Positions 12,941 through 34,121 of a stretch of 64,000 nucleotides of DNA are shown piece by piece. Position 1 is the stretch's first letter. Each line of letters starts with the position of its first letter. Both the position numbers and the translations under genes were made by a program. The stretch covers positions 496,001-560,000 of the forward strand of contig NZ_VCNM01000001.1 of the NCBI RefSeq assembly GCF_007671725.1, in the 5' to 3' direction. Source of the stretch: Halorubrum depositum (GTDB lineage Archaea; Halobacteriota; Halobacteria; Halobacteriales; Haloferacaceae). A model generated the notes under the pieces. That model did not search any database, had not been told where the DNA came from, and was given only the letters and a program-made list of their open reading frames with translations.

Positions 12941-15904
12941 ATGGGATCTAAAAACACAGTAGCCGATCCGTCCGCCGACCCCCGGGCGAACTACGATTAC
13001 CAGAGCGACGCGGAACACGACTCGGCGCTCGTGACCGACCTCGACGCGCTCGTCGACGGCGACGTCCGCTTCGACGAGTACTCCAAGCAGATGTACGCGA
13101 CCGACGCCAGCGCGTACGAGGTGACGCCGATCGGGGTCGTCTACCCGACCTCGACCGCGGACGTCGCCGCCGTGATGGAGTACTGCGCCGCGGAGGAGAT
13201 CCCGGCGCTCCCGCGCGGCGGCGGCACGAGCCTCGCCGGCCAGTCGGTGAACGAGGCGATCGTCTTGGACTTCACGCGGTACATGACCGACGTCGTCGAC
13301 GTCGACCCGGAGAACGCGCGGGTCCGGGCTCGGACCGGGATCACGCTCGGCGAGCTCAACCGCACCCTCGAACCGCACGGCCTGAAGTTCGCGCCCGACC
13401 CGTCGACCGCGGACCGGAGCGCGCTCGGCGGCGCCATCGGGAACAACACGACCGGGGCGCACTCCCTGAAGTACGGGAAGACCGACGCCTACGTCGAGGA
13501 GGTGGAGGCGGTGCTGTCCGACGGGAGCGTCGAGACGTTCGGCGAGATCGAGGTATCGGAGCTGCGCGAGGCGGCCGACCCCGGCGGGGAGCTCCTCGAA
13601 CGGATCTACGCGGAGGTCGTCCGGGTCATCGACGAGGAGGCCGACGAGGTCGACGAGCGGTACCCCGACCTCAAGCGGAACGTGTCGGGGTACAACCTCG
13701 ACGTGCTGATCGAGGAGGCGGAGGCGGGGACCGTCAACCTCGCGCGCCTGCTGGTCGGGAGCGAGGGGACCCTCGCGATCGTCACCGAGGCGGAGGTGAG
13801 CCTCGAACCGATCCCCGAGACGAAGGGAGTCGCGCTGCTCACGTACCACGACCTGCTCGACGCGATGGAGGACGTCGGCCCGATCCTCGAACACGACGCG
13901 GCGGCGGTCGAGGTGCTCGACGGCGTCCTCGTCGACCTGGCGCGCGACCTCGAGGAGTTCAAGGACGTCATCGGCCTGTTGCCCGACGAGACCGACTCGT
14001 TCCTGCTGATCGAGTTCTACGCCGACGACGAGGAGACGGCCAAGCGGCAGGTCGACGACCTCCTCGAGGACCGGGTCGGCGACCTGGCGTTCGACGGGAT
14101 GGCGGCGTACGACGAGGAGACGCAGAAGAAGTTCTGGAAGATGCGAAAGGCGTCGACGCCGATCCTGCTGTCGCGGACGGGCGACGAGAAGCACATCGCG
14201 TTCATCGAGGACCTCGCGATCCCGCCGGAGCACCTGCCGGAGTACACCAAGGAGTTCAAGCAGATCTTCGAGGACCACGACACGTTCGGGAGCTTCTACG
14301 CGCACGCCGGTCCCGGCTGCATGCACGTCCGGCCGCTCATCAACACGAAGACCGCCGAGGGGACCGAGACGATGGTGTCCATCTCCGACGCCGCCACGGA
14401 TCTGGCGGTGAAGTACGGCGGGTCGGTGTCGGGCGAGCACGGGGACGGGCGCGCTCGGACCCAGTGGAACCGGAAGCTGTACGGCGACCGCCTCTGGAAC
14501 GTCTTCCAGGACCTGAAGACCGCGTTCGACCCCGACTGGCTGCTCAACCCCGGGAGCGTCTGCGGCGACCACGACATGAGCGAGAACCTCCGGTTCGGGG
14601 AGGAGTACGAGTTCGACGCCGGCTTCGAGCCGGCCTTAGAGTGGGAGAACGAGAACGGGTTCCAGGGGATGGCCGAGCTCTGTCACGGCTGCGGCGGCTG
14701 TCGCACCAGTCAGGACGGGGCGGGCGGCGTGATGTGCCCGACGTACCGCGCCTCGCAGGAGGAGATCACCAGCACGCGTGGTCGCGCGAACCTCCTCCGG
14801 CAGGCGATGAGCGGGGACCTCCCCGAGGGCGAGCAGTTCGACACGGAGTTCATGCGCGAGGTGCTCGACCTCTGTGTCGGCTGTAAGGGCTGTTCGATCG
14901 ACTGCCCAAGCGAGGTGGACATGGCGAAGATGAAGGTGGAGGTCGAGCACGCCCACCACGAGGAGCACGGGGCCGACCTCCGGTCGAAGCTGTTCGCGAA
15001 CGTCGACGCGCTCTCGAAGCTCGGGAGCGCGACGGCGCCGCTCTCGAACCTCGGGACCAAGGTCCCCGGCGCGCGCGTCGTCATGGAGAAGACGCTCGGG
15101 ATCGCCCGGGAACGCTCGCTCCCGACGTTCCACCGCGAGACGTTCGTCGACTGGTGGGCGGACCGCGGCGGGTCGACGGTGGACGAGTCGACCGCGGACC
15201 GGCGCGTCGTGCTGGTGCCCGACACGGTCACGAACTACAACAACCCGAAGGCCGGCAAGGCGGCGGTCCGGGTGCTCGAGGCGGCGGGCGTCCACGTGAC
15301 GGTCGCCGACGAGATCACCGACAGCGGTCGCCCCGCGCACTCGAAGGGACTGCTCGGGAAGGCCCGCGAGACGGCCGAGTCCAACGTCGCGGCGCTGGCG
15401 CCGCACGTCGACGACGGGCGCGACGTCGTCGTGGTCGAGCCGTCCGACGCCGTCATGCTCCAGTCCGACTACCTCGACCTGCTGTCGTCCGACGACGCGA
15501 CCCGCGTGGCCGGGAACGCCTACGGCGTGTTGGAGTACCTCGACACGCACCGACTCGACGAGGCGCTCGACGTCGACGGCGGCGCGGAGCGGCTCACCTA
15601 CCACGGCCACTGCCACCAGAAGTCCGTCAAGAAGGACCACCACGCGGTCGGCGTCCTCCGGCGGACCGGGTTCCGGGTCGACCCGCTCGACACCTCCTGC
15701 TGCGGGATGGCCGGGACCTTCGGCTACGAGTCGGAGCACTACTCGATGAGCCAGGCCATCGGATCGATGCTGTTCGACCGGATCGACGACAGCGACGGCG
15801 ACGCGGTCGTCGCTCCCGGCGCCTCCTGCCGGACGCAGATCGGCGACGAGTACGACGAGAAGCCGCCGCATCCGATCGAGAAGATCGCCGACGCGCTGGC
15901 GTAG
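12941..15904 (+). CDS. FAD-linked and Fe-S D-lactate/glycolate-type dehydrogenase
   Basis: A 987-residue fusion. Residues 60-290 are an FAD-binding (PCMH/VAO) domain with PRGGGTSLAGQSV near 89-101; 300-545 the FAD-oxidase C-terminal domain; 575-665 two 4Fe-4S binding sites (Cys581-Cys584-Cys587 and Cys645-Cys648-Cys651, each with a further Cys); and 750-985 a heterodisulfide-reductase-like cysteine-rich domain with Cys920-Cys921. This combines GlcD- and GlcF/GlpC-like functions in one chain, passing electrons from a 2-hydroxy acid (D-lactate is the usual assignment) to the quinone pool at the inner membrane face. No transmembrane helix is seen. ATG 12941 is preceded by an AT-rich promoter region (CTTTTTAATTCG near 12841). 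Confidence 0.88.
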   Translation: MGSKNTVADPSADPRANYDYQSDAEHDSALVTDLDALVDGDVRFDEYSKQMYATDASAYEVTPIGVVYPTSTADVAAVMEYCAAEEIPALPRGGGTSLAGQSVNEAIVLDFTRYMTDVVDVDPENARVRARTGITLGELNRTLEPHGLKFAPDPSTADRSALGGAIGNNTTGAHSLKYGKTDAYVEEVEAVLSDGSVETFGEIEVSELREAADPGGELLERIYAEVVRVIDEEADEVDERYPDLKRNVSGYNLDVLIEEAEAGTVNLARLLVGSEGTLAIVTEAEVSLEPIPETKGVALLTYHDLLDAMEDVGPILEHDAAAVEVLDGVLVDLARDLEEFKDVIGLLPDETDSFLLIEFYADDEETAKRQVDDLLEDRVGDLAFDGMAAYDEETQKKFWKMRKASTPILLSRTGDEKHIAFIEDLAIPPEHLPEYTKEFKQIFEDHDTFGSFYAHAGPGCMHVRPLINTKTAEGTETMVSISDAATDLAVKYGGSVSGEHGDGRARTQWNRKLYGDRLWNVFQDLKTAFDPDWLLNPGSVCGDHDMSENLRFGEEYEFDAGFEPALEWENENGFQGMAELCHGCGGCRTSQDGAGGVMCPTYRASQEEITSTRGRANLLRQAMSGDLPEGEQFDTEFMREVLDLCVGCKGCSIDCPSEVDMAKMKVEVEHAHHEEHGADLRSKLFANVDALSKLGSATAPLSNLGTKVPGARVVMEKTLGIARERSLPTFHRETFVDWWADRGGSTVDESTADRRVVLVPDTVTNYNNPKAGKAAVRVLEAAGVHVTVADEITDSGRPAHSKGLLGKARETAESNVAALAPHVDDGRDVVVVEPSDAVMLQSDYLDLLSSDDATRVAGNAYGVLEYLDTHRLDEALDVDGGAERLTYHGHCHQKSVKKDHHAVGVLRRTGFRVDPLDTSCCGMAGTFGYESEHYSMSQAIGSMLFDRIDDSDGDAVVAPGASCRTQIGDEYDEKPPHPIEKIADALA

Positions 15905-16340: not shown

Positions 16341-17546
16341 TCAGTCGCCGAACGCGCCGCCCTCCCGCCACTCGTCGAGCGTCGTCTGGTCGCCGGCGAC
16401 GTCGGCGAACACGGACTCCGTGTGCTCACCGAGCCGGGGCGCGGGCGACCGGATGATGTCATCGTGGTCGGGGAAGTTGATCGGGTGGCCTGGGAGCAGA
16501 CACTCGCCCCAGTCGGGGTCGTCGTGCTCGACGACGAGGTCGCGCGCCCGCGTCTGGTCGTAGTTGACGACGTCCTCGACGTCGTTTATCGGGCCGCAGG
16601 GGAAGCCGTAGTCGATGAGGCGATCGAGCCAGTACTCCGTGGACTCCGTCTCGAACTCCTCCTCGATAATCCCGACAACGGTGTCGGCGTGCTCGAACCG
16701 GTCGTCGTTCGTCGGGTACTCCGCCAGCTCGTCGCGGCCGACCAGCTCGACGAAGTCGTCCCACCGGTCGTCGCTCGGGACGCCCGTGACGAGGGCGCCG
16801 TCGGCGGTCTCGAACCGCTGGTACGGGACGAGCGTCTGGTGGGAGGTGCCCTGCGGCCCCGGAACCGACCCGTCCATCGAGTACGACGTGAGGTACTCGT
16901 TCATCAGCGTCACGATGGAGTCGAAGAGACCGACGTCGAACTTGCCGTTGAAGCCGTCTTCTGTATCTCCGCCGCCCGCGTTCCCCCGCTCGTAGAGGCG
17001 GGCGAGGATCCCGATCGCGGTGAACATGCCGGTCGTGAGGTCGCCGATCGCCTGCCCGACCTTGACCGGCTCGCCGCCCTCCGGCCCGGTGACGCTCATG
17101 ATCCCGCCCTCCGCCTGCAGGATGAGGTCGAGGCCGGCCTGCTTCTTCCGCGGCCCGGTCTCGCCGTACCCCTTGATGCTGGCGTAGACGATCTCCGGGT
17201 TCCGTTCCTTGGCGGCGTCGTGGCCGACGCCGAGCTTGTCCGTGACGCCGTAGCCGAAGTTCTCGATGAACACGTCGGCCTCCTCCAGCAGCGACAGCGC
17301 CGCCTCGGTGCCGGCGTCGGACTTGAGATCGAGCGTGACGGAGCGCTTGTTCCGGTTGTTCGCCATGAAGTAACCGGACTTGCCGTCGGGGCCGACGCCC
17401 TGACTGCGGGCGGGGTCGCCGACGCCGGGCCGTTCGATCTTCACGACGTCGGCGCCCATGTCGGCGAGGAGCGCGCCGCAGAACGGGCCCGCGCGGTGAC
17501 CGGTCATCTCCACGACGGTGAGGTCGGCGAGCGGTCCCCCGGTCAT
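16341..17546 (-). CDS. CaiB/BaiF family CoA-transferase (type III)
   Basis: A 401-residue protein with the family's N-terminal nucleotide-binding core (LADMGADVVKIERPGVGD), FMANNRNKRSVTLDLK, and the catalytic Asp140 in the AGLDLILQAEGG motif that forms a mixed anhydride with the acyl donor. It transfers CoA between carboxylic acids, typically from succinyl-, acetyl- or formyl-CoA. Start at complement ATG 17544-17546 (MTGGPL), overlapping the crotonase stop by 4 nt (ATGA), so the two are co-translated. Near the TctABC uptake genes, its acceptor is probably an imported di- or tricarboxylate, which is inference. Confidence 0.88.
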   Translation of the reverse strand: MTGGPLADLTVVEMTGHRAGPFCGALLADMGADVVKIERPGVGDPARSQGVGPDGKSGYFMANNRNKRSVTLDLKSDAGTEAALSLLEEADVFIENFGYGVTDKLGVGHDAAKERNPEIVYASIKGYGETGPRKKQAGLDLILQAEGGIMSVTGPEGGEPVKVGQAIGDLTTGMFTAIGILARLYERGNAGGGDTEDGFNGKFDVGLFDSIVTLMNEYLTSYSMDGSVPGPQGTSHQTLVPYQRFETADGALVTGVPSDDRWDDFVELVGRDELAEYPTNDDRFEHADTVVGIIEEEFETESTEYWLDRLIDYGFPCGPINDVEDVVNYDQTRARDLVVEHDDPDWGECLLPGHPINFPDHDDIIRSPAPRLGEHTESVFADVAGDQTTLDEWREGGAFGD

Positions 17547-18325
17547 GCGTCGTTGAACTCGTCGACGAGCCGTTCCCGTTCGTCCGTCGCGAACTGCTCC
17601 CACCAGACCTCGGACTCGAACTCGCGGTTCTCCTCGGCGCTCTGCGCGTCGACCGCGTGGTTGAACGCGCGCTTGGAGTTCTTCACCGCGCTCCGTCCCG
17701 TGCTCTGGATCGCCTCGACGATGTCGCCGACCGTCTCGTCGAGCTCCTCGCGCGGAACGGCGTGGTTGACGAGGCCGATCCGCTCCGCCTCGTCCGCCTC
17801 GATCATCCCGGCCGTGTAGACGAGCTCCTTCGCTTTCGCCTCGCCGACGAGCTCGATCGCGCGCCACGTGGAGTTCCCGGTCGGGATCTGGCCGATGTCG
17901 GTCACGGGGACGCCGAACTTCGCGTCGTCGACCGCGATCCGCATGTCGCAGTACATCGCGAAGATGAGGCCGCCGCCCACGCAGTAGCCGTTGACCTTCG
18001 CGATGACGGGCGCGTGGCAGTCGAACGGCTTGCGGTACATCTCGTAGAACAGCTCCTGGCGGTCCTTCTGTCGCGGGTCGTGCTCCTCGGCGGAGCCCGC
18101 GTACTGCGAGATGTCGGCGCCCGCGGAGAACGCGTCGTCGCCCTCGCCCGTGATCACGACCACGTCGATGGACCGGTCGAGCTGGATCTCGTCGAACGCC
18201 CGGAGCAGGTCCAGCATGACCGTGTCGTTGAGCGCGTTGTACACCTCGGGCCTGTGGAACTCGATCGTCGCCACTCCGTCGGTGACGTCGAGCGAGATAC
18301 TCTCGTAGGCTGTCTCGCTTACCAT
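17543..18325 (-). CDS. Crotonase-fold protein lacking both hydratase glutamates
   Basis: A 260-residue enoyl-CoA hydratase/isomerase superfamily protein with the oxyanion-hole regions FSAGADISQYAG (66-77) and NGYCVGGGLIFAMYCD (112-127). The two catalytic Glu of classical enoyl-CoA hydratase (rat Glu144 and Glu164) align with Ile121 and Val141 in my hand alignment, and the usual IPGAGGTQR reads IPTGNSTWR. It binds an acyl-CoA, but the reaction may not be hydration: the crotonase fold also supports decarboxylation, hydrolysis, isomerisation and retro-Claisen cleavage. It is the first gene of a two-gene operon with the CoA-transferase and carries a palindromic operator just before its start. Confidence 0.82.
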   Translation of the reverse strand: MVSETAYESISLDVTDGVATIEFHRPEVYNALNDTVMLDLLRAFDEIQLDRSIDVVVITGEGDDAFSAGADISQYAGSAEEHDPRQKDRQELFYEMYRKPFDCHAPVIAKVNGYCVGGGLIFAMYCDMRIAVDDAKFGVPVTDIGQIPTGNSTWRAIELVGEAKAKELVYTAGMIEADEAERIGLVNHAVPREELDETVGDIVEAIQSTGRSAVKNSKRAFNHAVDAQSAEENREFESEVWWEQFATDERERLVDEFNDA

Positions 18326-18331
18326 GAATCA

Positions 18332-18349
18332 CACTCCCATCGGGGAGTG
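18332..18349. promoter_or_regulatory. Perfect palindromic operator before the crotonase gene
   Basis: CACTCCC at 18332-18338 and GGGAGTG at 18343-18349 are perfect 7-bp arms around a 4-nt centre. On the minus strand it lies between a TATA-like AATACTTTT (18350-18358) and the crotonase start at 18325, that is on the expected transcription start. Binding there would block transcription, so it is probably a repressor site. IclR proteins encoded at 6272 and 29541 are candidate binders, without direct evidence. Confidence 0.65.
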
Positions 18350-18505
18350 AAAAGTATTGTGAGTGGGGTAATCGCGGGGATCGCGAGTGGAGCGATCACG
18401 GGCGACGAGTCCCGTCAGACGCGGGGGATGATCGCCCCGCGCACCGGACGGGCAAGGGGTGTCACAGTCCAAAGAGTTTAGCTTGTGTGAGCGAATTCCG
18501 GAACT

Positions 18506-19561
18506 ATGTCGTACGAGATAGCGACGATACCAGGCGACGGTATCGGTCCGGAGGTCGTCGACGAAACGCTCCCGCTCCTTCACGAGGCGGCGTCCCGCCA
18601 CGGCGTCGACGTCGAGTTCACGGAGTACGATTGGGGGACCGAACGGTACCTCGAGACCGGGGAGATGATGCCCGACGACGCGCTCGATCAGATCGTCGAC
18701 GCGGACTCGATCCTCCTCGGCGCGGTCGGCCATCCGGACGTCCCGGACCACATCACGCTGCACGGGCTCCTGCTGCCGATCCGGAAGGGGTTCAACCAGC
18801 AGGTGTGCAAGCGCCCGTCGATCCTCTTCGACGGCGTCGAGAGCCCGCTCCGCGGGTACGAGGCCGGCGACATCGACTTCGTCGTGTACCGGGAGAACAC
18901 GGAGGGAGAGTACTCGGACGCCGGCGGTCGGGTCCACGAGGGGTTCGACCACGAGGTGGCGATCCAGAGCGCGGTCCACACGCGCGAGGGGACGGAGACG
19001 ATCGTGCGGGCGGCGTTCGAGGCGGCGACGGAGCGCGAGGGGCATCTGACGAGCATCACGAAGTCCAACGCCCAAGCGTTCAGCATGACGTTCTGGGACG
19101 ACGTCGTCGAGGACGTCGCGACCGACTACCCCGACGTCGAGGTCGAGTCGCTGCTCATCGACGCCGGGAGCATGGACCTCGTCCGCAGGCCGGAGGAGTT
19201 CGACGTGTTGGTCGCGTCGAACCTGTTCGGCGACATCCTCACGGACATCGGCGCCATCGTCAGCGGCAGCATGGGGCTCGCGCCGTCCGGGAACATCAAC
19301 GTCGACGCCGAGTACCCGTCGATGTTCGAGCCCGTTCACGGGAGCGCCCCCGACATCGTCGGGCAGGGCGTCGCGAACCCGATGGCCACCGTGCTCTCGG
19401 CCGCGATGCTGTTCGAGGACCTCGACGAGACCGCCGTTTCCGACGCTCTCTGGAGTGCGGTTCGAGAGGTGCTCGCCGACGACGACGCTCCGTCGACGCC
19501 GGACCTCGGAGGGTCGGCGTCGACCGGAGAGGTCGTCGCGGCGATCGAAGATCGGCTCTGA
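18506..19561 (+). CDS. Isocitrate/isopropylmalate-type dehydrogenase, tartrate/D-malate subgroup
   Basis: A 351-residue beta-decarboxylating dehydrogenase. IPGDGIGPEV (8-17) and the metal/NAD region DILTDIGAIVSGSMGLAPSGNI near 230-255 are clear. The segment PDHITLHGLLLPIRKGFNQQ resembles tartrate/D-malate dehydrogenases more than IPMDH or ICDH. The expected reaction is NAD-dependent oxidative decarboxylation of D-malate (or tartrate) to pyruvate (or related products). It is divergent from the crotonase-CoA-transferase operon and precedes the tricarboxylate uptake genes, fitting a carboxylate catabolic role. A TATA-like AGTTTAGC lies near 18475. Confidence 0.85.
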   Translation: MSYEIATIPGDGIGPEVVDETLPLLHEAASRHGVDVEFTEYDWGTERYLETGEMMPDDALDQIVDADSILLGAVGHPDVPDHITLHGLLLPIRKGFNQQVCKRPSILFDGVESPLRGYEAGDIDFVVYRENTEGEYSDAGGRVHEGFDHEVAIQSAVHTREGTETIVRAAFEAATEREGHLTSITKSNAQAFSMTFWDDVVEDVATDYPDVEVESLLIDAGSMDLVRRPEEFDVLVASNLFGDILTDIGAIVSGSMGLAPSGNINVDAEYPSMFEPVHGSAPDIVGQGVANPMATVLSAAMLFEDLDETAVSDALWSAVREVLADDDAPSTPDLGGSASTGEVVAAIEDRL

Positions 19562-19993
19562 TCAGTCGGTTCGGAGCGAGACGACCGGGACGTCGGAGTT
19601 GAGCATCAGGGACTGAACGGTGCTCCCGAACAGCGCCTTCCCGACCGGCGACCGCTTCCGACCGGCGATGACGAGGTACCGGGCGTCGTTGGACTCGCCG
19701 TAGTTGATTATCTCGTCGTCCGGTTCGCCGAGAAGTCCCACCGGGGTCGCGTCGTCGACGCCCGACTCGTCGATCGCCTCCTGTGCGAAGTCCTCGGCGA
19801 GTTCTCGGATGTCGTCTGTCGGAATCGACTTTCCGGTGTCGCTCACGCTGGTTCGTTCGAGTCCGACGAACTCCGAGCGGGTCAACACGTGGACGACGTG
19901 GACGGGTTCGTCGAACGCCTCGCCGAGCTCGTTCGCTTCTTCGACGATGCTCGGCGCTCTCTCCGACCGATCGACGGCTGCAACGATTACCAT
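19562..19993 (-). CDS. Universal stress protein (UspA family)
   Basis: A 143-residue single-domain UspA protein: VAAVDRSERAPS at the N-terminus (Asp8 region) and an ATP-binding loop AGRKRSPVGKALFGSTVQ near residues 110-127 matching the G-2x-G-9x-G(S/T) pattern. The start is complement 19991-19993; the long frame upstream is Arg-rich and not coding. It ends 1 nt after the tartrate/D-malate dehydrogenase stop (convergent) and is divergent from TctC. USPs are often encoded next to membrane carriers in haloarchaea, where they may regulate them in response to nucleotides. Confidence 0.85.
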   Translation of the reverse strand: MVIVAAVDRSERAPSIVEEANELGEAFDEPVHVVHVLTRSEFVGLERTSVSDTGKSIPTDDIRELAEDFAQEAIDESGVDDATPVGLLGEPDDEIINYGESNDARYLVIAGRKRSPVGKALFGSTVQSLMLNSDVPVVSLRTD

Positions 19994-20292
19994 AGGGACC
20001 GTATTCAGCCCCGGAATATAAAATGTTCCTCCGACGGGCAGGCTCGCGACACGGGACCGCGGCACTACCGGCGAACGCGGCGTACCGACGAACGCGACGC
20101 GACCGAGCGGGCTTCCGCCGGTCGACCGGAAAGATCGTCTCCGGTGGATCCCGGAGCGACGGCGAATAACGGAGATTTTGATAGAAACATTTATGATAAT
20201 GCCATCGAATGGCATGCATGGATACGGCGAAAGCCTACCCCGAAAGCAGATCCGGGCGAGAAAAAACCAGCTAAGCCGACCAACGTGACAAG

Positions 20293-21453
20293 ATGACTGA
20301 AGAAACACCAACCGACTCGGTCGAATCGACGTCAAACACGAAGCGGCGACGCTTCCTGCAGGCGATCGGCGCAACCTCCGCCATTTCGCTCGCCGGCTGT
20401 TCCGGCAACGGCGGCGACGGCGGCGACGGCGGCGACGGCGGCGATGGCAGTGACGGAAGCGACGGCAGTGACGGAAGCGACGGCGGCGACGGCGGCGACG
20501 GCGGCGACGGCGGCGACGGCGGCGACGGATGGTCCCCCGACGGAACCGTCCGGTACATCGTCCCGTACGACGAGGGCGGCGGAACCGACACGTACGCCCG
20601 CGGTATCCAGGAGGGCTTCCAGGAGGAGCTGGGCGAATCGCTGCAGATCGACAACATTCCCGGCGCCGGCGGCCTGAACGGTCTCGGCGAGCTGTACCGC
20701 TCGGAGCCCGACGGACAGACTATCGCGGGCAACGCGGGCCCGCTCGAGGTCGCGCCGCAGCTGCTCAACGAGCCGGACTTCGACATCCGCGACCTCACGG
20801 GACTCGGCGTGGTCGGGCAGTCGACGTGGTGTCTCGTCGTCAACGAGGAGTACGAGGGCGAGGTCGAGACGTTCGACGACGTCCTCGCGAAGTACGAGAG
20901 CGGCGAGTGGGAGAACATCGGCGTCCAGTCGTCCGGGAGCTCGCAGGACATCATCGTTCTGCTGTACAAGTACGCGTACGAAGATGAGGTCGGCTGGAAC
21001 TGGCAGAACCGCGTGCAGTACACCGGGACGGGCCCGGTGGCGCAGGCGGTCGCCAGCGGCGAGGTTCCCTGTGGTATCGGGACCGACGCCGGGACCCAGT
21101 CCGTCGTCAACACCGGTCGGATCTACCCCGTGGTGACATTCTTCGGGCCCGGTACCGGAGTCTACCCGGACATCGATTCGGTCACCGACCTCGGCTACCC
21201 CGAGATCGACTTCGTCGGCGGCGTCTGGCGTGGCATGTACGGCCCGCCGGAGATGGATCAGGAGATCGTCGACTTCTACGCCGAGACGCTGGAAGCGACC
21301 ACCGAGCACGAGGCCGTGCAGTCGTGGAGCGAGGAGACGGGGAACCCGGTCGTGTGGGAAGGACCGGAGGTCGCCGAGCAGAACTTCGAGGACGCCTTCG
21401 CGCAGTACGAGGAACTCGAAATCCTCGACCTCGTCAACGAGAACCAGCCCTGA
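20293..21453 (+). CDS. tctC: Tripartite tricarboxylate transporter substrate-binding lipoprotein
   Basis: A 386-residue extracytoplasmic binding protein of the TctC/Bug type. The N-terminus has a Tat signal (KRRRFLQAIG) and a lipobox with Cys36 (SLAGC), so it should be exported folded and lipid-anchored. Residues 38-79 are a Gly/Asp/Ser linker; residues 80-386 are the binding domain (RYIVPYDEGGGTDTYAR; PGAGGLNG). It captures a carboxylate for the TctB-TctA membrane pair downstream (start 74 nt after the stop). The ligand cannot be read from the sequence. Confidence 0.9.
   Translation: MTEETPTDSVESTSNTKRRRFLQAIGATSAISLAGCSGNGGDGGDGGDGGDGSDGSDGSDGSDGGDGGDGGDGGDGGDGWSPDGTVRYIVPYDEGGGTDTYARGIQEGFQEELGESLQIDNIPGAGGLNGLGELYRSEPDGQTIAGNAGPLEVAPQLLNEPDFDIRDLTGLGVVGQSTWCLVVNEEYEGEVETFDDVLAKYESGEWENIGVQSSGSSQDIIVLLYKYAYEDEVGWNWQNRVQYTGTGPVAQAVASGEVPCGIGTDAGTQSVVNTGRIYPVVTFFGPGTGVYPDIDSVTDLGYPEIDFVGGVWRGMYGPPEMDQEIVDFYAETLEATTEHEAVQSWSEETGNPVVWEGPEVAEQNFEDAFAQYEELEILDLVNENQP
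20409..20530 (+). repeat. In-frame GGCGGCGAC-type microsatellite in tctC
   Basis: About 120 nt of 9-bp units encoding Gly-Gly-Asp, with a central Gly-Ser-Asp variant block. It lies entirely in the linker after the lipobox Cys. Copy number can change without a frameshift, altering tether length. Similar acidic linkers are common in haloarchaeal lipoproteins. Confidence 0.85.
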
Positions 21454-21526
21454 GCCGGTTGCGACGCGTCGCGCGTCGTACTTAATTTATTTATACTTGG
21501 AGTCCGGCGGATCAGTTAACACTGTC

Positions 21527-22186
21527 ATGGTCAATTACTCACAACGACTTGAAGGAATCACAGCAGAACACGTACTACTCGTAACGCTTCTCGGGCTGTC
21601 GATAGTGTTCTACGTCGACCCGATACTCAAGGATTACCCGGAGAACGCGGCGATCTTCCCGCAGCTGATGGCACAGGTCGTCGGGATCGGTTCGTTCCTC
21701 CTCCTCATACAGAGCTACCTCCCGGGACCGCTCCAGAAGATCGTCGCCGAGGAAGTGAGTATGACGGAGAGCTTCGAAGAGGACCGCACGGAAGGAGTCG
21801 GCGCCGTCGAGGACGCCCAGGAGGACGAGGACTCCACGGACGTCGAAGACACCGACATCGATGAGAAGTACATCGACACCGACGACGACGACGATGCCGA
21901 CGACGTCGAGGTGAAGGGTCCCCCGCTGCACCAGAAGTGGGGCTTCGACATCAACAACACGGTGATCATGATCGTCTTCTCGAGCGTCTACTTCGCGCTC
22001 GGGTGGGCGATCGGCTTCCTCTACGTGACGCCGCTGTTCGTCTTCGCGTACATGACGTGGTTCAGAGTGAACGTGATCAAGAGCGCCCTGCTCGCCGGGC
22101 TCGCGACGGTCATCGTGTACGGATTCATCGTCTTCCTGCTCATGCCGTTCGACCAGGGAGCGTTGGTCTTCACGGGGGGTCTCTAG
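21527..22186 (+). CDS. tctB: Tripartite tricarboxylate transporter small membrane subunit
   Basis: A 219-residue membrane protein with four hydrophobic segments, two at residues 14-62 and two at about 143-210, in the TctB position between the binding protein and the large permease. Residues 78-130 form a very acidic, probably cytoplasmic loop (tract of five Asp near 119-123) longer than in bacterial TctB proteins I know. ATG 21527 follows a TATA-like AATTTATTTATAC, so a promoter internal to the cluster is possible. It is contiguous with tctA: TAG is followed directly by ATG. Confidence 0.83.
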   Translation: MVNYSQRLEGITAEHVLLVTLLGLSIVFYVDPILKDYPENAAIFPQLMAQVVGIGSFLLLIQSYLPGPLQKIVAEEVSMTESFEEDRTEGVGAVEDAQEDEDSTDVEDTDIDEKYIDTDDDDDADDVEVKGPPLHQKWGFDINNTVIMIVFSSVYFALGWAIGFLYVTPLFVFAYMTWFRVNVIKSALLAGLATVIVYGFIVFLLMPFDQGALVFTGGL

Positions 22187-23686
22187 ATGGCGGTCGCAAG
22201 CCTCGTCGAGGGGATACAGATCGCGGTCAGCTGGCCGGTCATCGGCTGGATGGCCGCCGGACTGCTCGCCGGGATCGTTCTGGGTGCGCTGCCGGGGATC
22301 GGCTCGCCGGTCGGTATGGCGATCGTCCTCCCGCTCACCGTCCCGCTCGATCCGACGCCCGCGCTCATCCTCCTGATCTCCATCTACAGCGGCGCGATGT
22401 TCGGGGGGAGTATCGCCGCGATCCTGTTGAACGCTCCCGGGACGGAGTCGGCGGCCGCGACGACGCTCGACGGCTACCCGATGGCGAAGAAGGGGCTCGC
22501 GAAGAACGCGCTCGCGATCGCGACGACGGCCTCCGCATTTAACGGGTTCGTCGCCGCGATCCTGTTGATCGCGATCTCGCCGGTCCTCATCGAGGTCGTC
22601 CTCCTGTTCGGATCGGTGGAGTACTTCCTGCTCGCGATCCTGGGGATCTCGCTCATCACGATCGTCGCGGACGGGTCGATCGTGAAGGGGCTCGTGGCGG
22701 GCGCGTTCGGCTTCATGATCTCGACGATGGGCGTCGCCATCATGGCGCCGACGCCGCGCTACGCGTTCGGACAGCTCGCGCTGTACGACGGGCTCAACTT
22801 CGTCGCCGCCCTGATCGGGATGTTCGCGTTCGCGGAGATGATGAAACTCGCCGTGCAGACGTCGATCGCGGAGGACGCGGTCGGCATCACGGGCAGCATC
22901 ACCGACGGGATCAAGACGGTGTTCAACTACCCGAAAGCGCTGTTCAAAGCGGGCGTGATCGGCATGCTGATCGGCGCCGTCCCCGGCTCCGGTGCGACGA
23001 CATCGACGTTCGTCGCGTACGCCGAGGAGGCGCGCTCCTCGGCCGCCGACGGGATCTTCGGCGACGGTGACCCGCGCGGGATCATCGCCCCGGAGGGGGC
23101 GAACAACCCGACCGTCAGCGGGTCGCTGGTCCCGACGCTGTCCTTCGGGATCCCGGGGAGCGGTTCGACGGCGGTGTTCCTCGGCGGCATCCTGATGCAC
23201 GGGCTCCAGCCCGGTCCGGGGCTGTTCGGCGATCAGCTGCACATCACGTACGCGCTGTTCGTCTCGGTGTTCCTCGGCAACTTCATCATCCTGGCCGTCG
23301 GCTACTCGGTCATCCCGTACGCGAGCGCGATCACCAAGATCGACACGGACGTCATCATTCCGATGGTGATCGTCCTCTCGTTCATCGGCGCGTTCAGCCT
23401 CAGGCGGAACTGGTTCGACGCCTTCGGCGTGCTGGCGCTCGGCATCCTGGGCTACTACATGGTGAAGTACAAGTACTCGGTGATAGCGTTCGTCCTCGGG
23501 ATCGTTTTGGGGCCGATAGCCGAGGAGAACTTCTTCCGGGCGCTTCAGCTATCGGGCGGCGGGTACGGCATCTTCGTGTCGCCGAGCCGACCGCTCACGC
23601 TGAGCATCTCCATCCTGATCATCGTGGTGCTGGTCGGGCCGTTCGTCGGACCGTACATCAAGGAGGCGGTGAGCAACCGCCGGTAG
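22187..23686 (+). CDS. tctA: Tripartite tricarboxylate transporter permease
   Basis: A 499-residue polytopic protein of the TctA family, with the characteristic first block GALPGIGSPVGMAIVLP (near 44-60), IYSGAMFGGSIAAILLNAPG and a second conserved block around GAVPGSGATTSTFVAYAEEA. About 11-12 membrane segments are visible. With TctB and TctC it forms a sodium- or proton-driven, binding-protein-dependent carboxylate importer. Its start directly abuts the tctB stop. Length is normal for the family. Confidence 0.92.
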   Translation: MAVASLVEGIQIAVSWPVIGWMAAGLLAGIVLGALPGIGSPVGMAIVLPLTVPLDPTPALILLISIYSGAMFGGSIAAILLNAPGTESAAATTLDGYPMAKKGLAKNALAIATTASAFNGFVAAILLIAISPVLIEVVLLFGSVEYFLLAILGISLITIVADGSIVKGLVAGAFGFMISTMGVAIMAPTPRYAFGQLALYDGLNFVAALIGMFAFAEMMKLAVQTSIAEDAVGITGSITDGIKTVFNYPKALFKAGVIGMLIGAVPGSGATTSTFVAYAEEARSSAADGIFGDGDPRGIIAPEGANNPTVSGSLVPTLSFGIPGSGSTAVFLGGILMHGLQPGPGLFGDQLHITYALFVSVFLGNFIILAVGYSVIPYASAITKIDTDVIIPMVIVLSFIGAFSLRRNWFDAFGVLALGILGYYMVKYKYSVIAFVLGIVLGPIAEENFFRALQLSGGGYGIFVSPSRPLTLSISILIIVVLVGPFVGPYIKEAVSNRR

Positions 23687-23931
23687 CGCGCCGCCGGTCG
23701 CCCCGGCACGGCGGATCGCTTCGACACTCGGTCGGCGTCGACGGACGTCCGCCGACCGACGCAGTTCGCGTCGCAGTTCTCGGTTCCATTTTGAAGACGG
23801 CTTCCCCGGTTCGACCACTGACGAGCACTCTCCGCCGTCGACGGGGTCGTTCGCGGCGGCCGCGAGGCGCGTGCAACGAGTGGCGCGAACCGTACCTATA
23901 AACCGGTCTAGCGTCTGAGTTCGAACGTACG

Positions 23932-25137
23932 ATGACCGCCCAGAAGCGAGAAGCGCGGGCAGTAGACGCATCACCGGTCCGCGGCGACTCCCCGGCGATC
24001 ACCGGCGCCGGCATGACGGCGTTCGCGAACGCCGACGATCGGTCGCTCCTCGAACTCCTCCTCGTCGCGGCGGAGCGCGCGCTCGACGACGCCGACCGCG
24101 ACCCCGCCGGCGTGGACTCGGTCCACGTCGGGAACATGGCCGCCGAGGCGTTCAACGAGCGGTCCGGGCTGGCGAACGCGCTCGTCGGCGGCCTCGGGAT
24201 GACCGGCGTCACCGCCCGGCGGATCGAGAACACCAGCGCGAGCGGCGCCAGCGCGTTTCAGAGCGCGGTCGCGGCGGTCGCGAGCGGTCGGAGCGACCGA
24301 GCGCTGGCCGTCGGCGGCGAGAAGATGTCCGCCGCGGACACGGCGACGGCCACGGAGATCATCAGCCGGATCACACACGACCGCGAGTACGAACAGGGGG
24401 TCACGCTGCCGTCCTTCGGCGGGCTGGCGGCGGCCGCCTACCTGCGCGGCTCCGACGCGGACCGGCGCGACCTGGCGCGGGTCGCCGTGAAGAACCACGC
24501 CAACGCGAGTTCGAACGAGTACGCCCAGTTCCGCAAGCGGATCGCCGTCGACGACGTGCTGGCGTCGCCGGCGGTCGCCGAGCCGCTGCGCCTCTACGAC
24601 TGCTGTCCGACCAGCGACGGGGCCGCGGCGGTCCTGATCGAGTCCGGTCCGGCGGAGAGCGACGACGCGGTCAGGGTCGCCGCCTGCGAGAGCGCCACCG
24701 GGACGCACGCGGTCGCCGACCGGGCGGACCCGCTGGAGATCGAGAGCGTGCGGACGGCCGGCGAGCGCGCGTACGACGCGGCCGGTTTCGGGGCGGACGC
24801 GGTCGACATCGCGTGCATCCACGACGCGTTCACGATCCTCGAGTGGCTGGAGATGGAGGAGCTCGGGCTCGCCCCGGCAGGGCGCGCGTGGGAACTCACT
24901 CGCGACGGGGAGACGGACCTCGACGGGGCGCTCCCCGTCAACCCCGGCGGCGGGCTGAAGGCCCGCGGGCACCCGCTCGGCGCGACGGGGATCTCGCAGG
25001 TGATCGAGCTCGTGTGGCAGCTCCGCGGCGACCTGCCCGACGAGCGGGCGGTCGACGGCGCCGCCCGCGGGCTCGCCGTCAACGTCGCCGGGTTCGGAAA
25101 CAACGCCGTCTGCACGCTGCTGGAGGGCGACGCGTGA
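23932..25137 (+). CDS. Thiolase-like protein with Ser in place of the nucleophilic Cys
   Basis: A 401-residue SCP-x/lipid-transfer-type thiolase fold. The N-terminal active-site loop that normally reads C(A/S)SG reads NTSASG, putting Ser102 (codon AGC) at the nucleophile position. The other catalytic elements are kept: His297 (HDAF), His347 (GHPLG) and Cys394 near the C-terminus. It is co-translated with a DUF35 protein (GTG overlapping the TGA). Actinobacterial Ltp2-ChsH2 pairs of thiolase-like and DUF35 proteins act as retro-aldolases without the thiolase Cys, so a C-C lyase or aldolase role is plausible; ordinary thiolysis seems unlikely. A TATA-like CCTATAAACC precedes ATG 23932. Confidence 0.82.
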   Translation: MTAQKREARAVDASPVRGDSPAITGAGMTAFANADDRSLLELLLVAAERALDDADRDPAGVDSVHVGNMAAEAFNERSGLANALVGGLGMTGVTARRIENTSASGASAFQSAVAAVASGRSDRALAVGGEKMSAADTATATEIISRITHDREYEQGVTLPSFGGLAAAAYLRGSDADRRDLARVAVKNHANASSNEYAQFRKRIAVDDVLASPAVAEPLRLYDCCPTSDGAAAVLIESGPAESDDAVRVAACESATGTHAVADRADPLEIESVRTAGERAYDAAGFGADAVDIACIHDAFTILEWLEMEELGLAPAGRAWELTRDGETDLDGALPVNPGGGLKARGHPLGATGISQVIELVWQLRGDLPDERAVDGAARGLAVNVAGFGNNAVCTLLEGDA

Positions 25138-25460
25138 CCGACCTGCTCGAGTGTCGCGACTGCGGGCACCGGACCTACTACGAGAAACACCGCTGCCTGG
25201 AGTGCGGCGGGGCGGAGTTCGACGCCGTTCCGGCCGGGAACGGCGAGCTGCTCTCCGTGACCACCGTGCACGTCACGCCGGAGGGGGTCCGCGAGCCGAA
25301 CGCGCTCGGACTCGCCGCGTTCCCCGGCGGCGCGAACGTCGTCGCCCAGCTCGACGAGGAGCTCTCGATCGGGGACGAGGTGCGCCTGGTCGGCGACCGA
25401 GAGCTTCGGGTCACTGAGGACGGGCCGCTGTGGGGCGTCCGCATCGCCGCCGCGGAGTGA
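25134..25460 (+). CDS. DUF35 zinc-ribbon/OB-fold partner of the thiolase-like protein
   Basis: A 108-residue protein starting at GTG 25134, overlapping the thiolase TGA by 3 nt. Residues 6-27 hold a rubredoxin-like zinc ribbon (CRDC and CLEC), and residues 40-105 an OB fold. DUF35 proteins bind acyl-CoA and form stable complexes with thiolase-like proteins, including archaeal thiolase-HMG-CoA synthase assemblies and steroid retro-aldolases. Its strict coupling to the thiolase gene indicates a 1:1 complex. Confidence 0.85.
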   Translation: MTDLLECRDCGHRTYYEKHRCLECGGAEFDAVPAGNGELLSVTTVHVTPEGVREPNALGLAAFPGGANVVAQLDEELSIGDEVRLVGDRELRVTEDGPLWGVRIAAAE

Positions 25461-26968: not shown

Positions 26969-28225
26969 TCAGGGCTCGGGGATCGCGCCGGCCTCGATCA
27001 GCTCGTCGATGCGGGCGTCGTCGTAGCCGGCCGCTTTCAACACGCGCACCGTGTCCTCGCCCAGCAGCGGCGGCGCCTTCTCGAACCCGGAGTCGGCCCG
27101 GTCGTAGTTGAGCGGGTGTTCGATGACCGGGATCTCCCCCGCGGCGGGGTGGTCGATGGAACTGACGACGCCGCGGGCGCGCACCTGTTCGTTGTCCAGC
27201 GCCTCGTCGACGTCGAACACCGGGCCCACGGGGAGCCCGCGCTCGTCGGCCAGCAGGTCGACCCACTCGTCGGTCGTCTTGGTTCGCAGGACCTCCGAGA
27301 GCTCCGCCTCGAGCGCGTCCATGTTGTTCACCCGCGCCGAGTTCGTGGCGAAGCGCTCGTCCGACGAGAGGTTCTCGCGCCCGATCGCGTCGCAGAACTC
27401 CTCCCAGAGCTTCTGGTTCCCGCAGGCGACGTTGAGGTGGCCGTCGGCCGTCGGGTACATCTGGTACGGGGCGAGCACCGGGTCCTTCGTCCCCATCCGC
27501 GACGTCTCCTCGCCGACGAAGCTCTTGCCCGCCTGCTTCGTGAGCCACGGGAGCGCCGCGTCGAGCATCCCGAGCTCGACGCGCTCGCCCTCGCCGGTCC
27601 GCTCGCGGTTGTACAGCGAGGTGACGATCCCGAACGCCGACCACATCGCGGTGATGAGGTCCGTCTGGGGGAGCCCGACCTTCGCCGGCGGCGCGTCGGG
27701 GTAGCCCGTGACGCTCATCGTGCCGCTCATCCCCTGCACGAGCAGGTCGTACCCCGGCCGGTCGCTCCACGGGCCCGTCTCGCCGAACGCCGAGATCGAA
27801 CAGTAGATCAGGTCGTCGTTGTGATCCCGGAGCGTCTCGTAGTCGACGCCGAGGCGCTCGGCGGTGCCCGGCCGGAAGTTCTCGACGACGACGTCCGCCT
27901 CGGAGACGACGTCGTACAGCGCGGTCAGCCCCTCTTCCGTCTTCAGGTTCAGTTCGATGCTCTGCTTACCGTAGTTCACCGTCCAGAAGTACGGCGACTC
28001 CCCCTCGTCGGACGCCGGCTTCCCGGGGCCCTCGTACCCCTCGACGTCGACGAACGGCGGCCCCGAGTACCGGCTGTCGTCGCCGACGCCCGGCCGCTCG
28101 ACCTTGATCACTTCCGCCCCCTGATTCGCTAACATCATCGTGGCGAAGCCGCCGGTGACGAACGTCGTCAGGTCGACCACGACGATCTCCTCTAAGAGTC
28201 GCTGTCGCTTCTCGTCTGGGCTCAT
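26969..28225 (-). CDS. Second CaiB/BaiF family CoA-transferase
   Basis: A 418-residue type III CoA-transferase with catalytic Asp160 in RPGYDLLVQGMSGTMSVTG, and the conserved VDLTTFVTGGFATMMLANQGAEV and WTVNYGKQSIELNLK blocks. It is only distantly like the first copy at 16341, so a different acid substrate is likely. I start at MSPDEK (complement 28223-28225); ATG three codons upstream is an alternative. It is the last gene of a minus-strand run IclR-MFS-CoA-transferase, suggesting import by the MFS carrier and activation by this enzyme. Confidence 0.87.
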   Translation of the reverse strand: MSPDEKRQRLLEEIVVVDLTTFVTGGFATMMLANQGAEVIKVERPGVGDDSRYSGPPFVDVEGYEGPGKPASDEGESPYFWTVNYGKQSIELNLKTEEGLTALYDVVSEADVVVENFRPGTAERLGVDYETLRDHNDDLIYCSISAFGETGPWSDRPGYDLLVQGMSGTMSVTGYPDAPPAKVGLPQTDLITAMWSAFGIVTSLYNRERTGEGERVELGMLDAALPWLTKQAGKSFVGEETSRMGTKDPVLAPYQMYPTADGHLNVACGNQKLWEEFCDAIGRENLSSDERFATNSARVNNMDALEAELSEVLRTKTTDEWVDLLADERGLPVGPVFDVDEALDNEQVRARGVVSSIDHPAAGEIPVIEHPLNYDRADSGFEKAPPLLGEDTVRVLKAAGYDDARIDELIEAGAIPEP

Positions 28226-28286
28226 ACCTACCACTCCGACGACGACGGCATAAAGGTTGGGAGACCGCGGGCGGTGAGGGGAACGG

Positions 28287-29489
28287 CTACAGCCGCATCA
28301 ACAGCAACACCGCGGCGCCGCCGAGCCCGGCGATCCCGGCGAGGAGGAAGAACAGCACGGCGCTCGTCGCGTGCGTGAGCACGAACCCCGCGAGCGACGC
28401 GCCGAGGGCGCCGACGCCGAACATCGCGAGGTACGTGAAGCCGTACGAGAGCCCCTGCACCGCTTCGTCGGCGTTCTCGGCAACGACGACCTGGTATATC
28501 GGGGCCGTGCCGTACACGAAGAAGCCGAGCAGGAGACAGGCGCCGACGAGCGCGACGGTGCCGAGCTCCCGGACGAACGGGAACGCCGCCGCGAGGCCGG
28601 CCAAGACAGCGAAGAAGCCGAAGAAGGCGGTCGTGCTGGAGACGCGGTCGGTCAGCCGCCCGCCCACGTACTGGCCGCCGATGCCGACGGTCAGGAGGGC
28701 GGTGTACACGTACTGGGCCGGCTGGACGGTCTGATCGAGCAGCTCGAAGGACTGGAGCGCCGGGGACTCGGCGAGGACGTCGGGAAGGAACGTCAACAGG
28801 CCGCGGTAGTACGTGCCGTACAACAGCACCGCGACGAGCGCGACCGCGAACGCGGTCGCGAACAGGGTGCGGGAGTCACGAGCGGTCTGTCGGAGCTCGT
28901 CGGCGATCGACCCCGTCTCGCCCGCGTCCTCGGCCTCGCCGAGCTCGAACTCGATCCGCGTCCCGGCCAGCCCGACGAGCAGGGCCACGGCCGACAGCGC
29001 GCCGGCCGCGAGCCGCCAGTCGGCGACCATGAGCAACAGCGCCGTGAGGAGCGGGCCGAACGCCGTCCCGACGTTGCCGCCCACGCCGTGATACGCGAAC
29101 ACCGAGCCGCGGGCGTCCGCGGTGCGGCTGATGAGCGAGAGCCCCGCGGGGTGGTAGACGCTCGCGAAACAGCCCCACAGGAGCACGGCGGCGCCGAGCG
29201 AGACCACGCCGCGCGAGAGCGCCACGATCCCGAACCCGATCCCCATTCCCGCGATGGAGATCAAGATCAGTCGCCGCGAGCTGAACCGGTCCGAGAGGAT
29301 CCCGCTCACCGGCGCGCCGAGGCCGATGAACGCGTAGCCGGCGCCGATGACGGTGCCGATGACGGCCGCCGAGACGTCGAATTCGGCCATCCAGAGCCCG
29401 ACGAAGAGCGGTATCGAGAGTTCGTACGTGTGAAACATCCCGTGGGCGAGAGAGGTGAATCGCACGAGCGACCGATCGTTCGCGTTCAT
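28287..29489 (-). CDS. MFS transporter (carboxylate type)
   Basis: A 400-residue protein with 12 predicted membrane segments and MFS landmarks such as GAPVSGILSDRFSSRRLILIS in the first cytoplasmic loop and GGRLTDRVSSTTAFFG in the matching second-half loop. A basic-acidic central loop (about residues 185-205) separates the halves. It lies 51 nt downstream of the IclR regulator and 61 nt upstream of the CoA-transferase, so it probably imports that enzyme's acid. Substrate is not determinable. Confidence 0.85.
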   Translation of the reverse strand: MNANDRSLVRFTSLAHGMFHTYELSIPLFVGLWMAEFDVSAAVIGTVIGAGYAFIGLGAPVSGILSDRFSSRRLILISIAGMGIGFGIVALSRGVVSLGAAVLLWGCFASVYHPAGLSLISRTADARGSVFAYHGVGGNVGTAFGPLLTALLLMVADWRLAAGALSAVALLVGLAGTRIEFELGEAEDAGETGSIADELRQTARDSRTLFATAFAVALVAVLLYGTYYRGLLTFLPDVLAESPALQSFELLDQTVQPAQYVYTALLTVGIGGQYVGGRLTDRVSSTTAFFGFFAVLAGLAAAFPFVRELGTVALVGACLLLGFFVYGTAPIYQVVVAENADEAVQGLSYGFTYLAMFGVGALGASLAGFVLTHATSAVLFFLLAGIAGLGGAAVLLLMRL

Positions 29490-29540: not shown

Positions 29541-30302
29541 TCACACCGAGTGTTCGATGTGGAGCTCCAGCTCGTTGACCGCGCCGAGGATCCGTTCGGG
29601 GAGCGCCTCGGTGAAGCGGTCGCCGGTGATCCGGTTGGCGGGCCCGGAGACGCTCAGCGCGCCGACCACCTCGCCGCCGGCGACCACGGCCGCACCGATC
29701 GCGTGGACGCCCGCCGTCGTCTCCTGTCGGTTGAACGCGTAGCCGCGCTCACGGATCCCGTCCAGCTCCGCGAACAGGTCCTCGCGGGTCGTGATGGCGT
29801 CGTGGCCGGCGTCGAGTCCGTGCGCGTCGACTATCGCCTCGACCCGGTCGCGGTCGTACGCCGCGAGGATCGCCTTCCCCGCCGCGCTCGTGTGGATCGC
29901 GCCGCGCTTTCCGACGTGGGCGCCCGTCTGAACGGCGCTCTGTCCGACTTCGGTGTAGAGGTACACCCGCTCGCCGTTCTCCTCGACGATGAACTGCGCC
30001 CGTTCGCCCGTCTCGTCGGCGAGGGCGTCGACCTTCTCCTTGATCATGGGGTAGGCCGTCACGCGGCGCTGGATCTGCCCGCCGACCGTGAGGAACTGGA
30101 GGCCGAGCGCGTACACGTCGCCGTCGCGGACGACGTACCCGTGTTTCTTCAGCGTCGCGAGGTGGCGGTGGACCGTGCTCGGGGCCAATCCGAGATACTC
30201 GGATAACTCGGCGATCGTCATCCCGTCGTTTTCGCGCAGCGCATCCATCACCCGTAACGACGTTTCAGTCGTTTTAGCGACCGATTTGAGTTCTTTTTCC
30301 AT
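29541..30302 (-). CDS. IclR family transcriptional regulator of the MFS-CoA-transferase unit
   Basis: A 253-residue IclR protein: winged helix at residues 10-65 (TIAELSEYLGLAPSTVHRHLA) and effector domain at 80-245 (KRGAIHTSAAGKAILAAY; GYAFNRQETTAGVHAIGAAV). It heads the minus-strand run and is divergent from the LarA-like gene. A TATA-like AGTTAAGTAG lies just upstream on its strand. It likely controls both directions through palindromes in the 381-nt gap. Confidence 0.88.
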   Translation of the reverse strand: MEKELKSVAKTTETSLRVMDALRENDGMTIAELSEYLGLAPSTVHRHLATLKKHGYVVRDGDVYALGLQFLTVGGQIQRRVTAYPMIKEKVDALADETGERAQFIVEENGERVYLYTEVGQSAVQTGAHVGKRGAIHTSAAGKAILAAYDRDRVEAIVDAHGLDAGHDAITTREDLFAELDGIRERGYAFNRQETTAGVHAIGAAVVAGGEVVGALSVSGPANRITGDRFTEALPERILGAVNELELHIEHSV

Positions 30303-34043: not shown

Positions 34044-34121
34044 GTCCGGACCGGCGCCGTTCGGGTCGGAACCGCGTCGTCGCACCGATACCCTTGTAAC
34101 GCTACCCCTCGAACCACCGAT

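Follow-up and report, generated by a model that had tools for sequence, protein, structure and literature searches.

A conserved haloarchaeal gene island links a class III CoA-transferase and a crotonase lacking the hydratase glutamates to a possible glyoxylate and 2-hydroxyacid route

The Halorubrum depositum locus studied here lies in a window of 64,000 nucleotides (positions 496001–560000 of contig 1 of a 3.18-Mb haloarchaeal genome, whose nearest named loci are from Halorubrum), and it raises the question of whether its genes for the use of organic acids form one catabolic system, and on which acids such a system would work. The original prediction, confined to positions 16341–25460, had grouped a class III coenzyme A (CoA)-transferase, an atypical crotonase, a tartrate/D-malate-type dehydrogenase, a Tct importer with a universal stress protein (USP) and a thiolase-DUF35 pair. 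Profile matches to the open reading frames (ORFs) of the window confirmed that all of these genes were present and correctly typed. Nevertheless, the borders had been drawn too narrowly, since the conserved gene set ran from 6272 to 30302 (approximately 6.3–30.3 kb), between two IclR-family regulator genes (IclR1 and IclR2), and the most consistent partners had been overlooked: a thiamine diphosphate (ThDP)-dependent enzyme at 8.6 kb, a YdiJ/GlcD-like dehydrogenase at 12.9 kb and a second CoA-transferase at 27 kb. The island is real and conserved, and apparently undescribed, and it combines known enzyme families in a way that is new; no description of this haloarchaeal cluster was found in the literature searched, most subscription journals lying outside its coverage. 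It is not a new kind of system, and two of its enzymes depart from their families at catalytic positions. The reading that we favour, with about even confidence, is that of a modular haloarchaeal island for the catabolism of glyoxylate and 2-hydroxyacids, whose CoA-dependent upstream branch can be exchanged.

Of 42 loci obtained by scanning 84,980 species genomes, 29 were haloarchaeal or nearly so, and in these 29 the genes within 10-kb flanks of the first CoA-transferase gene (CoAT1) were counted, some flanks being ended by contig ends. The crotonase was near CoAT1 in 26 of the 29 loci and the importer genes TctCBA in 16, while the USP and the YdiJ-like enzyme were each found in 15, the ThDP enzyme and the tartrate-type dehydrogenase each in 14, the second CoA-transferase (CoAT2) in 13, a major facilitator superfamily (MFS) transporter in 12, the thiolase-DUF35 pair in nine and a D-2-hydroxyacid dehydrogenase in seven. 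The genes recur as a set in four families, so that the observation lies far above chance at the level of genes.

The distribution of the island within the haloarchaea is patchy, CoAT1 being present in 21 of 292 Halobacteria genomes and in 10 of 77 genera. The ThDP enzyme was found in 19 of these 21 genomes and in 13 of the other 271 (Fisher p = 2e-19), and the tartrate/D-malate-type dehydrogenase in 20 of the 21 and in 36 of the 271 (p = 3e-15), both p values being inflated by shared ancestry. In most of the 21 genomes, one or other of these partners shared a contig with CoAT1 at a distance of no more than 18 kb, most copies lying 2–18 kb apart; the exceptions were two genomes with both partners far off (G290 and G233) and one in which neither was found (G131). 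The original prediction had made its case depend on co-conservation of the neighbourhood, and the neighbourhood proved to be co-conserved both in the 29 loci and in the 292 Halobacteria, which supports a functional linkage. Hence, the genes of the island are very probably linked.

Furthermore, a divergent version of the set was detected in one genome (G220), with a CoA-transferase 46%, a crotonase 35% and a TctA 33% identical to those of the window, together with the ThDP enzyme, the USP, the YdiJ-like enzyme, TctCBA and an MR/MLE enzyme. Bacterial parallels were found in Salipiger, where the ThDP enzyme accompanies an alpha-hydroxyacid oxidase and TctCBA, and in Limimaricola, where a crotonase-CoA-transferase operon accompanies a YdiJ-like oxidase and a TRAP importer. 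Additionally, the CoAT1 of Halorubrum sp. Hd13 (L017, 10001–11293) was 89% identical, with a match longer than at other loci, and in another genome (G279) CoAT1 fell below threshold while the rest of the cluster was 92–97% identical; a frameshift or decay of CoAT1 is possible from these sequences.

CoAT1 (16341–17546, minus strand) and the crotonase gene (17543–18325, minus strand) overlap by 4 bp, and the crotonase has its own promoter-like stretch directly upstream, similar across loci. CoAT1 and CoAT2 (26969–28234, minus strand) matched PF02515 with 375.6 and 407.8 bits, respectively, against a cut-off of 23.3; the catalytic Asp169 of CoAT1 was conserved in all aligned orthologues, and CoAT2 carried Asp192. 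Both scored far under every substrate-specific NCBIfam cut-off that matched, including, for CoAT1, those of the mesaconate, glutarate and oxalate CoA-transferases; the model for succinyl-CoA:mesaconate CoA-transferase (Mct) gave CoAT1 283.9 bits, with a cut-off of 700. The nearest solved relatives were SUGCT for CoAT1 and formyl-CoA transferase-type enzymes for CoAT2, and by analogy with the family (PMC5592240) a dicarboxylate would be a plausible substrate for both.

The crotonase had been called atypical, and the alignment to solved enoyl-CoA hydratases bore this out: Glu144 and Glu164 of those enzymes correspond to Ile121 and Val141. Across all 22 orthologues these positions held Ile121 and Val141, the latter replaced by Thr in many, and the crotonase of the divergent G220 version likewise lacked both Glu residues. 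The Glu pair is essential or near-essential in characterised crotonase members such as DmdD (PMC3660561). Six residues (Tyr75, His82, Arg89, Gln90, His104 and Gln146) were invariant in the 22 orthologues and mostly not common to five outgroups. The predicted fold was ordinary (AF2 pLDDT 86.8), with a Z of 33.9 and 1.6 Å over 252 residues to 5Z7R, a comparison that identifies only the general crotonase fold, the top matches being nearly tied. Fold and ECH_1 domain (PF00378, 198 bits) thus placed the protein within the crotonase superfamily, and the missing Glu pair placed it outside the enoyl-CoA hydratases proper. Since the new residues are conserved and the model is ordinary, it looks like a working enzyme of changed chemistry and not like a hydratase; Arg89 might bind a second carboxylate. 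The natural reading of CoAT1 and the crotonase with TctCBA is import, then CoA activation, then the crotonase step, and it is likely that the two enzymes act in sequence.

The three importer genes are consecutive on the plus strand (20293–23686): a TctC-like substrate-binding lipoprotein (20293–21453, PF03401), a TctB-like small membrane subunit (21527–22186) and a TctA permease (22187–23686, PF01970, 424 bits). TctC and TctA exceeded their cut-offs; TctB matched PF07331 only weakly (19 bits, cut-off 29.1) and was assigned by position and synteny, its place matching that of an annotated TctB in Natronococcus occultus. The set is thus that of a tripartite tricarboxylate transporter. Upstream of it lie the USP gene (19562–19993, minus strand, PF00582) and the gene of the tartrate/D-malate-type dehydrogenase (18506–19561, plus strand), which starts 180 bp from the crotonase gene on the opposite strand. 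This dehydrogenase, of the IDH/IPMDH superfamily (PF00180), reached 458.6 bits with TIGR02089, just below the cut-off of 470.4, and its best solved relative was the tartrate dehydrogenase/decarboxylase 3FLK.

The YdiJ/GlcD-GlcF-like FAD/Fe-S D-2-hydroxyacid dehydrogenase (12941–15904, plus strand; PF02913, PF01565, Fe-S and CCG domains) scored 551 bits with NF049975, below the D-2-hydroxyglutarate dehydrogenase cut-off of 1350, and had the glycolate oxidase 9QGZ as its best sequence match among solved structures. The ThDP enzyme (8601–10208, plus strand) belongs to PRK06154, a family with no stated function (NF004807, 828.8 bits, cut-off 607), and has the catalytic Glu46. On either side of it are a D-2-hydroxyacid dehydrogenase of the haloarchaeal family NF041369 (7418–8404, minus strand; 511 bits, cut-off 400) and a malic enzyme fused to a PTA-like domain (10550–12808, plus strand; PF00390, PF03949, PF01515).

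The input of these last enzymes was suggested by other haloarchaeal genomes. In Halocatena salina the ThDP enzyme occurs with dehydrogenases, the malic enzyme, malate synthase, glycerate kinase and urate-to-allantoin genes; in both Halocatena salina and G183, the ThDP enzyme, two dehydrogenases and the malic enzyme stand beside uricase, HIU hydrolase, OHCU decarboxylase and allantoinase-like genes. G183 has the full urate-type set, and contig 3 of G279 and G263 have subsets of it with the ThDP enzyme or its dehydrogenase partners; the D-2-hydroxyacid dehydrogenase adjoins the ThDP enzyme in urate-type clusters too. The contig 3 locus (L087), from the same genus, is a purine-degradation cluster with a second, 68% identical ThDP copy, a D-2-hydroxyacid dehydrogenase, a tartrate-type dehydrogenase, HIU hydrolase, allantoinase-like and M20 genes. 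The breakdown of urate and allantoin yields glyoxylate at its end, and the carboligase cluster of P. aeruginosa lies near purine genes (PMC12694930). A search of ten haloarchaea gave no match over cut-off to the canonical glyoxylate carboligase (TIGR01504, 711.2 bits), and the genome of the window has a glycerate kinase and no haloarchaeal malate synthase. The linkage to urate genes, the missing canonical carboligase and the glycerate kinase without malate synthase together point to glyoxylate as the input of the downstream half. The chances that this half handles glyoxylate seem about balanced, and the ThDP enzyme is a candidate glyoxylate-consuming enzyme.

In the favoured reading, the island would serve the catabolism of 2-hydroxy and dicarboxylic acids converging on glyoxylate and C3 acids. 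TctCBA would import an acid, CoAT1 would form its CoA ester, as the chemistry of its family supports, and the co-transcribed crotonase would convert the ester without the two Glu residues, in a reaction other than hydration. Most plausibly this would be a decarboxylation, or some other reaction of a carboxy-bearing acyl-CoA for which the oxyanion hole is enough; a possible role of CoAT2 is to recycle CoA. The GlcD/YdiJ-like dehydrogenase would then oxidise the hydroxyacid set free, whether glycolate or a different D-2-hydroxyacid, to a 2-oxoacid, and the ThDP enzyme, the D-2-hydroxyacid dehydrogenase, the tartrate/D-malate-type dehydrogenase and the malic enzyme would form the downstream half, taking up glyoxylate and C3–C4 hydroxyacids. 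Elsewhere in haloarchaea this half is coupled to urate/allantoin genes in place of CoAT1-crotonase-Tct. Taken by itself, decarboxylase chemistry of the crotonase is a tentative assignment, on the doubtful side. Tartrate, D-malate, tartronate, malonate-type acids and glycolate precursors each fit parts of the set as substrates. A more specific proposal, which we consider quite improbable, is that CoAT1 and the crotonase form a new route that depends on CoA: tartronate or a similar hydroxydicarboxylate would become a CoA ester, which the Glu-less crotonase would decarboxylate to glycolyl-CoA; glycolate would be oxidised by the GlcD/YdiJ-like dehydrogenase, the PRK06154 ThDP enzyme, with its Glu, would be an unrecognised archaeal glyoxylate carboligase, and urate catabolism in other haloarchaea would draw on this lower half as well. 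If the favoured reading is right, haloarchaea would use hydroxy- and dicarboxylic acids and purines modularly via glyoxylate, with enzymes outside the known families, and two enzymes would be candidates for study: the crotonase, with its active site rebuilt, and the ThDP enzyme, which could do carboligase work while keeping the Glu absent from known carboligases. As the gene set recurs in archaea and partly in bacteria, both enzymes could be assigned.

Several observations weigh against the favoured reading. Val in place of Glu at the standard position 51 is characteristic of known glyoxylate carboligases (PMC3534367), whereas Glu46 of the ThDP enzyme was kept in all aligned orthologues; it is therefore not a member of the Gcl family, even if it were to work like one. 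A glyoxylate route does not require the tartrate-type dehydrogenase. The Fisher tests on the 292 Halobacteria ignore shared ancestry. A second haloarchaeal context, with no Tct genes nearby, combines CoAT1 and the crotonase with a tartrate-type dehydrogenase, an MR/MLE enzyme, another CoA-transferase, acetate-CoA ligase, acyl-CoA dehydrogenase and MaoC, and would suit other substrates. An operator shared between the transcription units was sought by eye, and no common motif was seen; of the upstream sequences, that of the crotonase alone looked alike from locus to locus. Finally, we do not claim the crotonase as a methylmalonyl-CoA decarboxylase: His66 and Tyr140 of that enzyme are absent from the copy in the window, although the G220 crotonase has a Tyr at a similar place.

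The strongest competitor is simple co-location, in which two or more ordinary organic-acid modules would lie side by side without forming one pathway: a D-malate/tartrate module (TctCBA and the dehydrogenase), a glycolate/glyoxylate module (YdiJ-like enzyme, ThDP enzyme and D-2-hydroxyacid dehydrogenase) and a CoA-ester module. The genes do form separate transcription units with several regulators and transporters, and the modules do occur apart, as CoAT1-crotonase without Tct, as ThDP-Tct-YdiJ without CoAT1 and as the ThDP enzyme and dehydrogenase with urate genes. Nevertheless, ten genera have this same combination, as does the divergent G220 version, and we regard co-location as possible though somewhat unlikely. 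A sulfonate route is far less probable, to the point of being remote: TctCBA would import sulfolactate, the FAD dehydrogenase would oxidise it, the ThDP enzyme would act like sulfopyruvate decarboxylase or Xsc, and a TauE/SafE-family exporter, encoded upstream of IclR1 (3973–5031, plus strand), would export sulfite. Bacterial sulfolactate clusters resemble this in having a Tct-type importer and an FAD dehydrogenase, and the ThDP enzyme matched Xsc models at 225–233 bits; however, these scores are below its ALS scores and far under the cut-offs of 620–676, no sulfonate genes were present among the annotated genes of the urate clusters, and CoAT1 and the crotonase would have no role.

The pathway of the original prediction, worked out in more detail, would run differently: an imported di- or tricarboxylate would become a CoA ester and, by the crotonase, a beta-hydroxyacyl-CoA, which a DUF35/thiolase-like aldolase would cleave to acetyl-CoA and pyruvate or glyoxylate, the C3/C4 acids passing to the dehydrogenase and the malic enzyme. 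The proposed aldolase is of SCP-x/archaeal-type thiolase fold (23932–25137, plus strand; PF00108, PF22691), and its DUF35/ChsH2-like zinc-ribbon OB partner (25134–25460, plus strand; PF01796, 34.9 bits) overlaps its stop codon (25134–25137), such a partner being a feature of Ltp2/Sal-type aldolases. DUF35/thiolase-fold aldolases do exist for steroid acyl-CoAs (PMC12329534), and the pair lies near the other genes in Halorubrum and in Natrialba/Natronococcus, at different positions. The description as a Cys-less thiolase held for the thiolytic or condensing nucleophile, replaced by Ser102, and not for the whole protein, in which other Cys residues are present. Ser is also found at this position in other aligned homologues and in the solved archaeal relative 4YZO, annotated only as a putative acyl-CoA acyltransferase, so the loss of Cys is not peculiar to the island. 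The known thiolase-fold aldolases Ltp2 and Sal need the Tyr of YDHF/YDCY as catalytic base (PMC12329534), and the motif here is HDAF, with His297, lacking both that Tyr and the C/H residue. The crotonase, moreover, lacks the hydratase Glu pair, and the thiolase-DUF35 pair is absent from 20 of the 29 loci, which makes a thiolase-like aldolase weak as the central cleavage step. We do not accept the pair in that role and regard the thiolase-like protein as accessory, though it may have some other activity; the pathway as a whole is unlikely. The pair is found near CoAT2-MFS-IclR2 in two lineages, Natronococcus/Natrialba among them, and may for this reason belong to that submodule.

The remaining genes of the island are those of the MFS transporter (28287–29489, minus strand, PF07690), IclR2 (29541–30302, minus strand, PF01614) and IclR1 (6272–7042, plus strand, PF01614/PF09339), the last syntenic in L004, L005, L014 and L017. 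The CoAT2-MFS-IclR2 group is adjoined by a LarA-like racemase/epimerase gene (30684–32033, plus strand; nickel-pincer-cofactor isomerase group 22, NF052515, 490 bits, cut-off 400), whose product could, from its sequence, interconvert stereoisomers of hydroxyacids. Directly past the island, a coiled-coil AAA/SMC-like protein and then RdfA (rod-determining factor A) are encoded (32076–34745). Upstream of TctC, a perfect 7+7 inverted repeat (ATGCCATnnnATGGCAT / ATGCCATCGAATGGCAT, 20199–20215) is partly kept in L017 and not in more distant loci, and is a possible regulator site; the window held no second copy at up to three mismatches (approximately 0.26 expected by chance), and the fetched loci no exact match to its 6+6 core. 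Plasmid islands of Halorussus (L052, 1–45000) and Haladaptatus (L076) combine CoAT1-crotonase with the tricarballylate dehydrogenase TcuA, two MmgE/PrpD proteins and an isocitrate-lyase-family enzyme, and in L052 a haloacid dehalogenase.

Compared with known systems, CoAT1 and CoAT2 share the fold family and the catalytic Asp of the class III CoA-transferases SUGCT, YfdE and Frc (9BR7, 4HL6, 1PQY), but remain below the matching NCBIfam equivalog thresholds, and the ENFRPG-type motif is ENFGYG in CoAT1. The original prediction had drawn an analogy with itaconate/citramalate catabolism. Bacterial itaconate/mesaconate degradation by CoA-transferase, hydratase and citramalyl-CoA lyase does have in common with the island a dicarboxylate ester made by a CoA-transferase and then a hydratase-fold enzyme, and in C. 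necator a Tct binding-protein gene adjoins the cluster (PMC12290011). The island crotonase, in contrast, has lost the hydratase Glu pair, CoAT1 is far below the CoA-transferase cut-offs given above, the window ORFs that were scanned showed no CitE-type lyase, and nothing in the three-step pathway corresponds to the ThDP/hydroxyacid-dehydrogenase half; itaconate and citramalate are thus not specifically supported as substrates. The haloarchaeal methylaspartate cycle, with Mct and Mch, likewise sets a class III CoA-transferase to work on a dicarboxylate and has glyoxylate as a product, but CoAT1 stands at about 284 bits against the 700 of Mct, and Mch is an (R)-specific two-domain hydratase and not a crotonase (PMC5592240). 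With the steroid aldolases Ltp2 and Sal (PMC12329534), the thiolase-DUF35 pair shares a thiolase fold without the thiolase nucleophile and a DUF35 partner, and differs by its lack of the Tyr base and of the C/H of the YDxF motif. Finally, the allantoin-glyoxylate pathway of P. aeruginosa (Gcl, GlxR, Hyi and glycerate kinase; PMC12694930) differs in that the ThDP enzyme of the island is of another family (PRK06154) with a catalytic Glu, neither GlxR nor Hyi was identified in the island cluster, and a tartrate-type dehydrogenase and a malic enzyme are added. In the way that it works, this pathway is the comparison for the ThDP and reductase half of the island and for its purine linkage elsewhere in haloarchaea.

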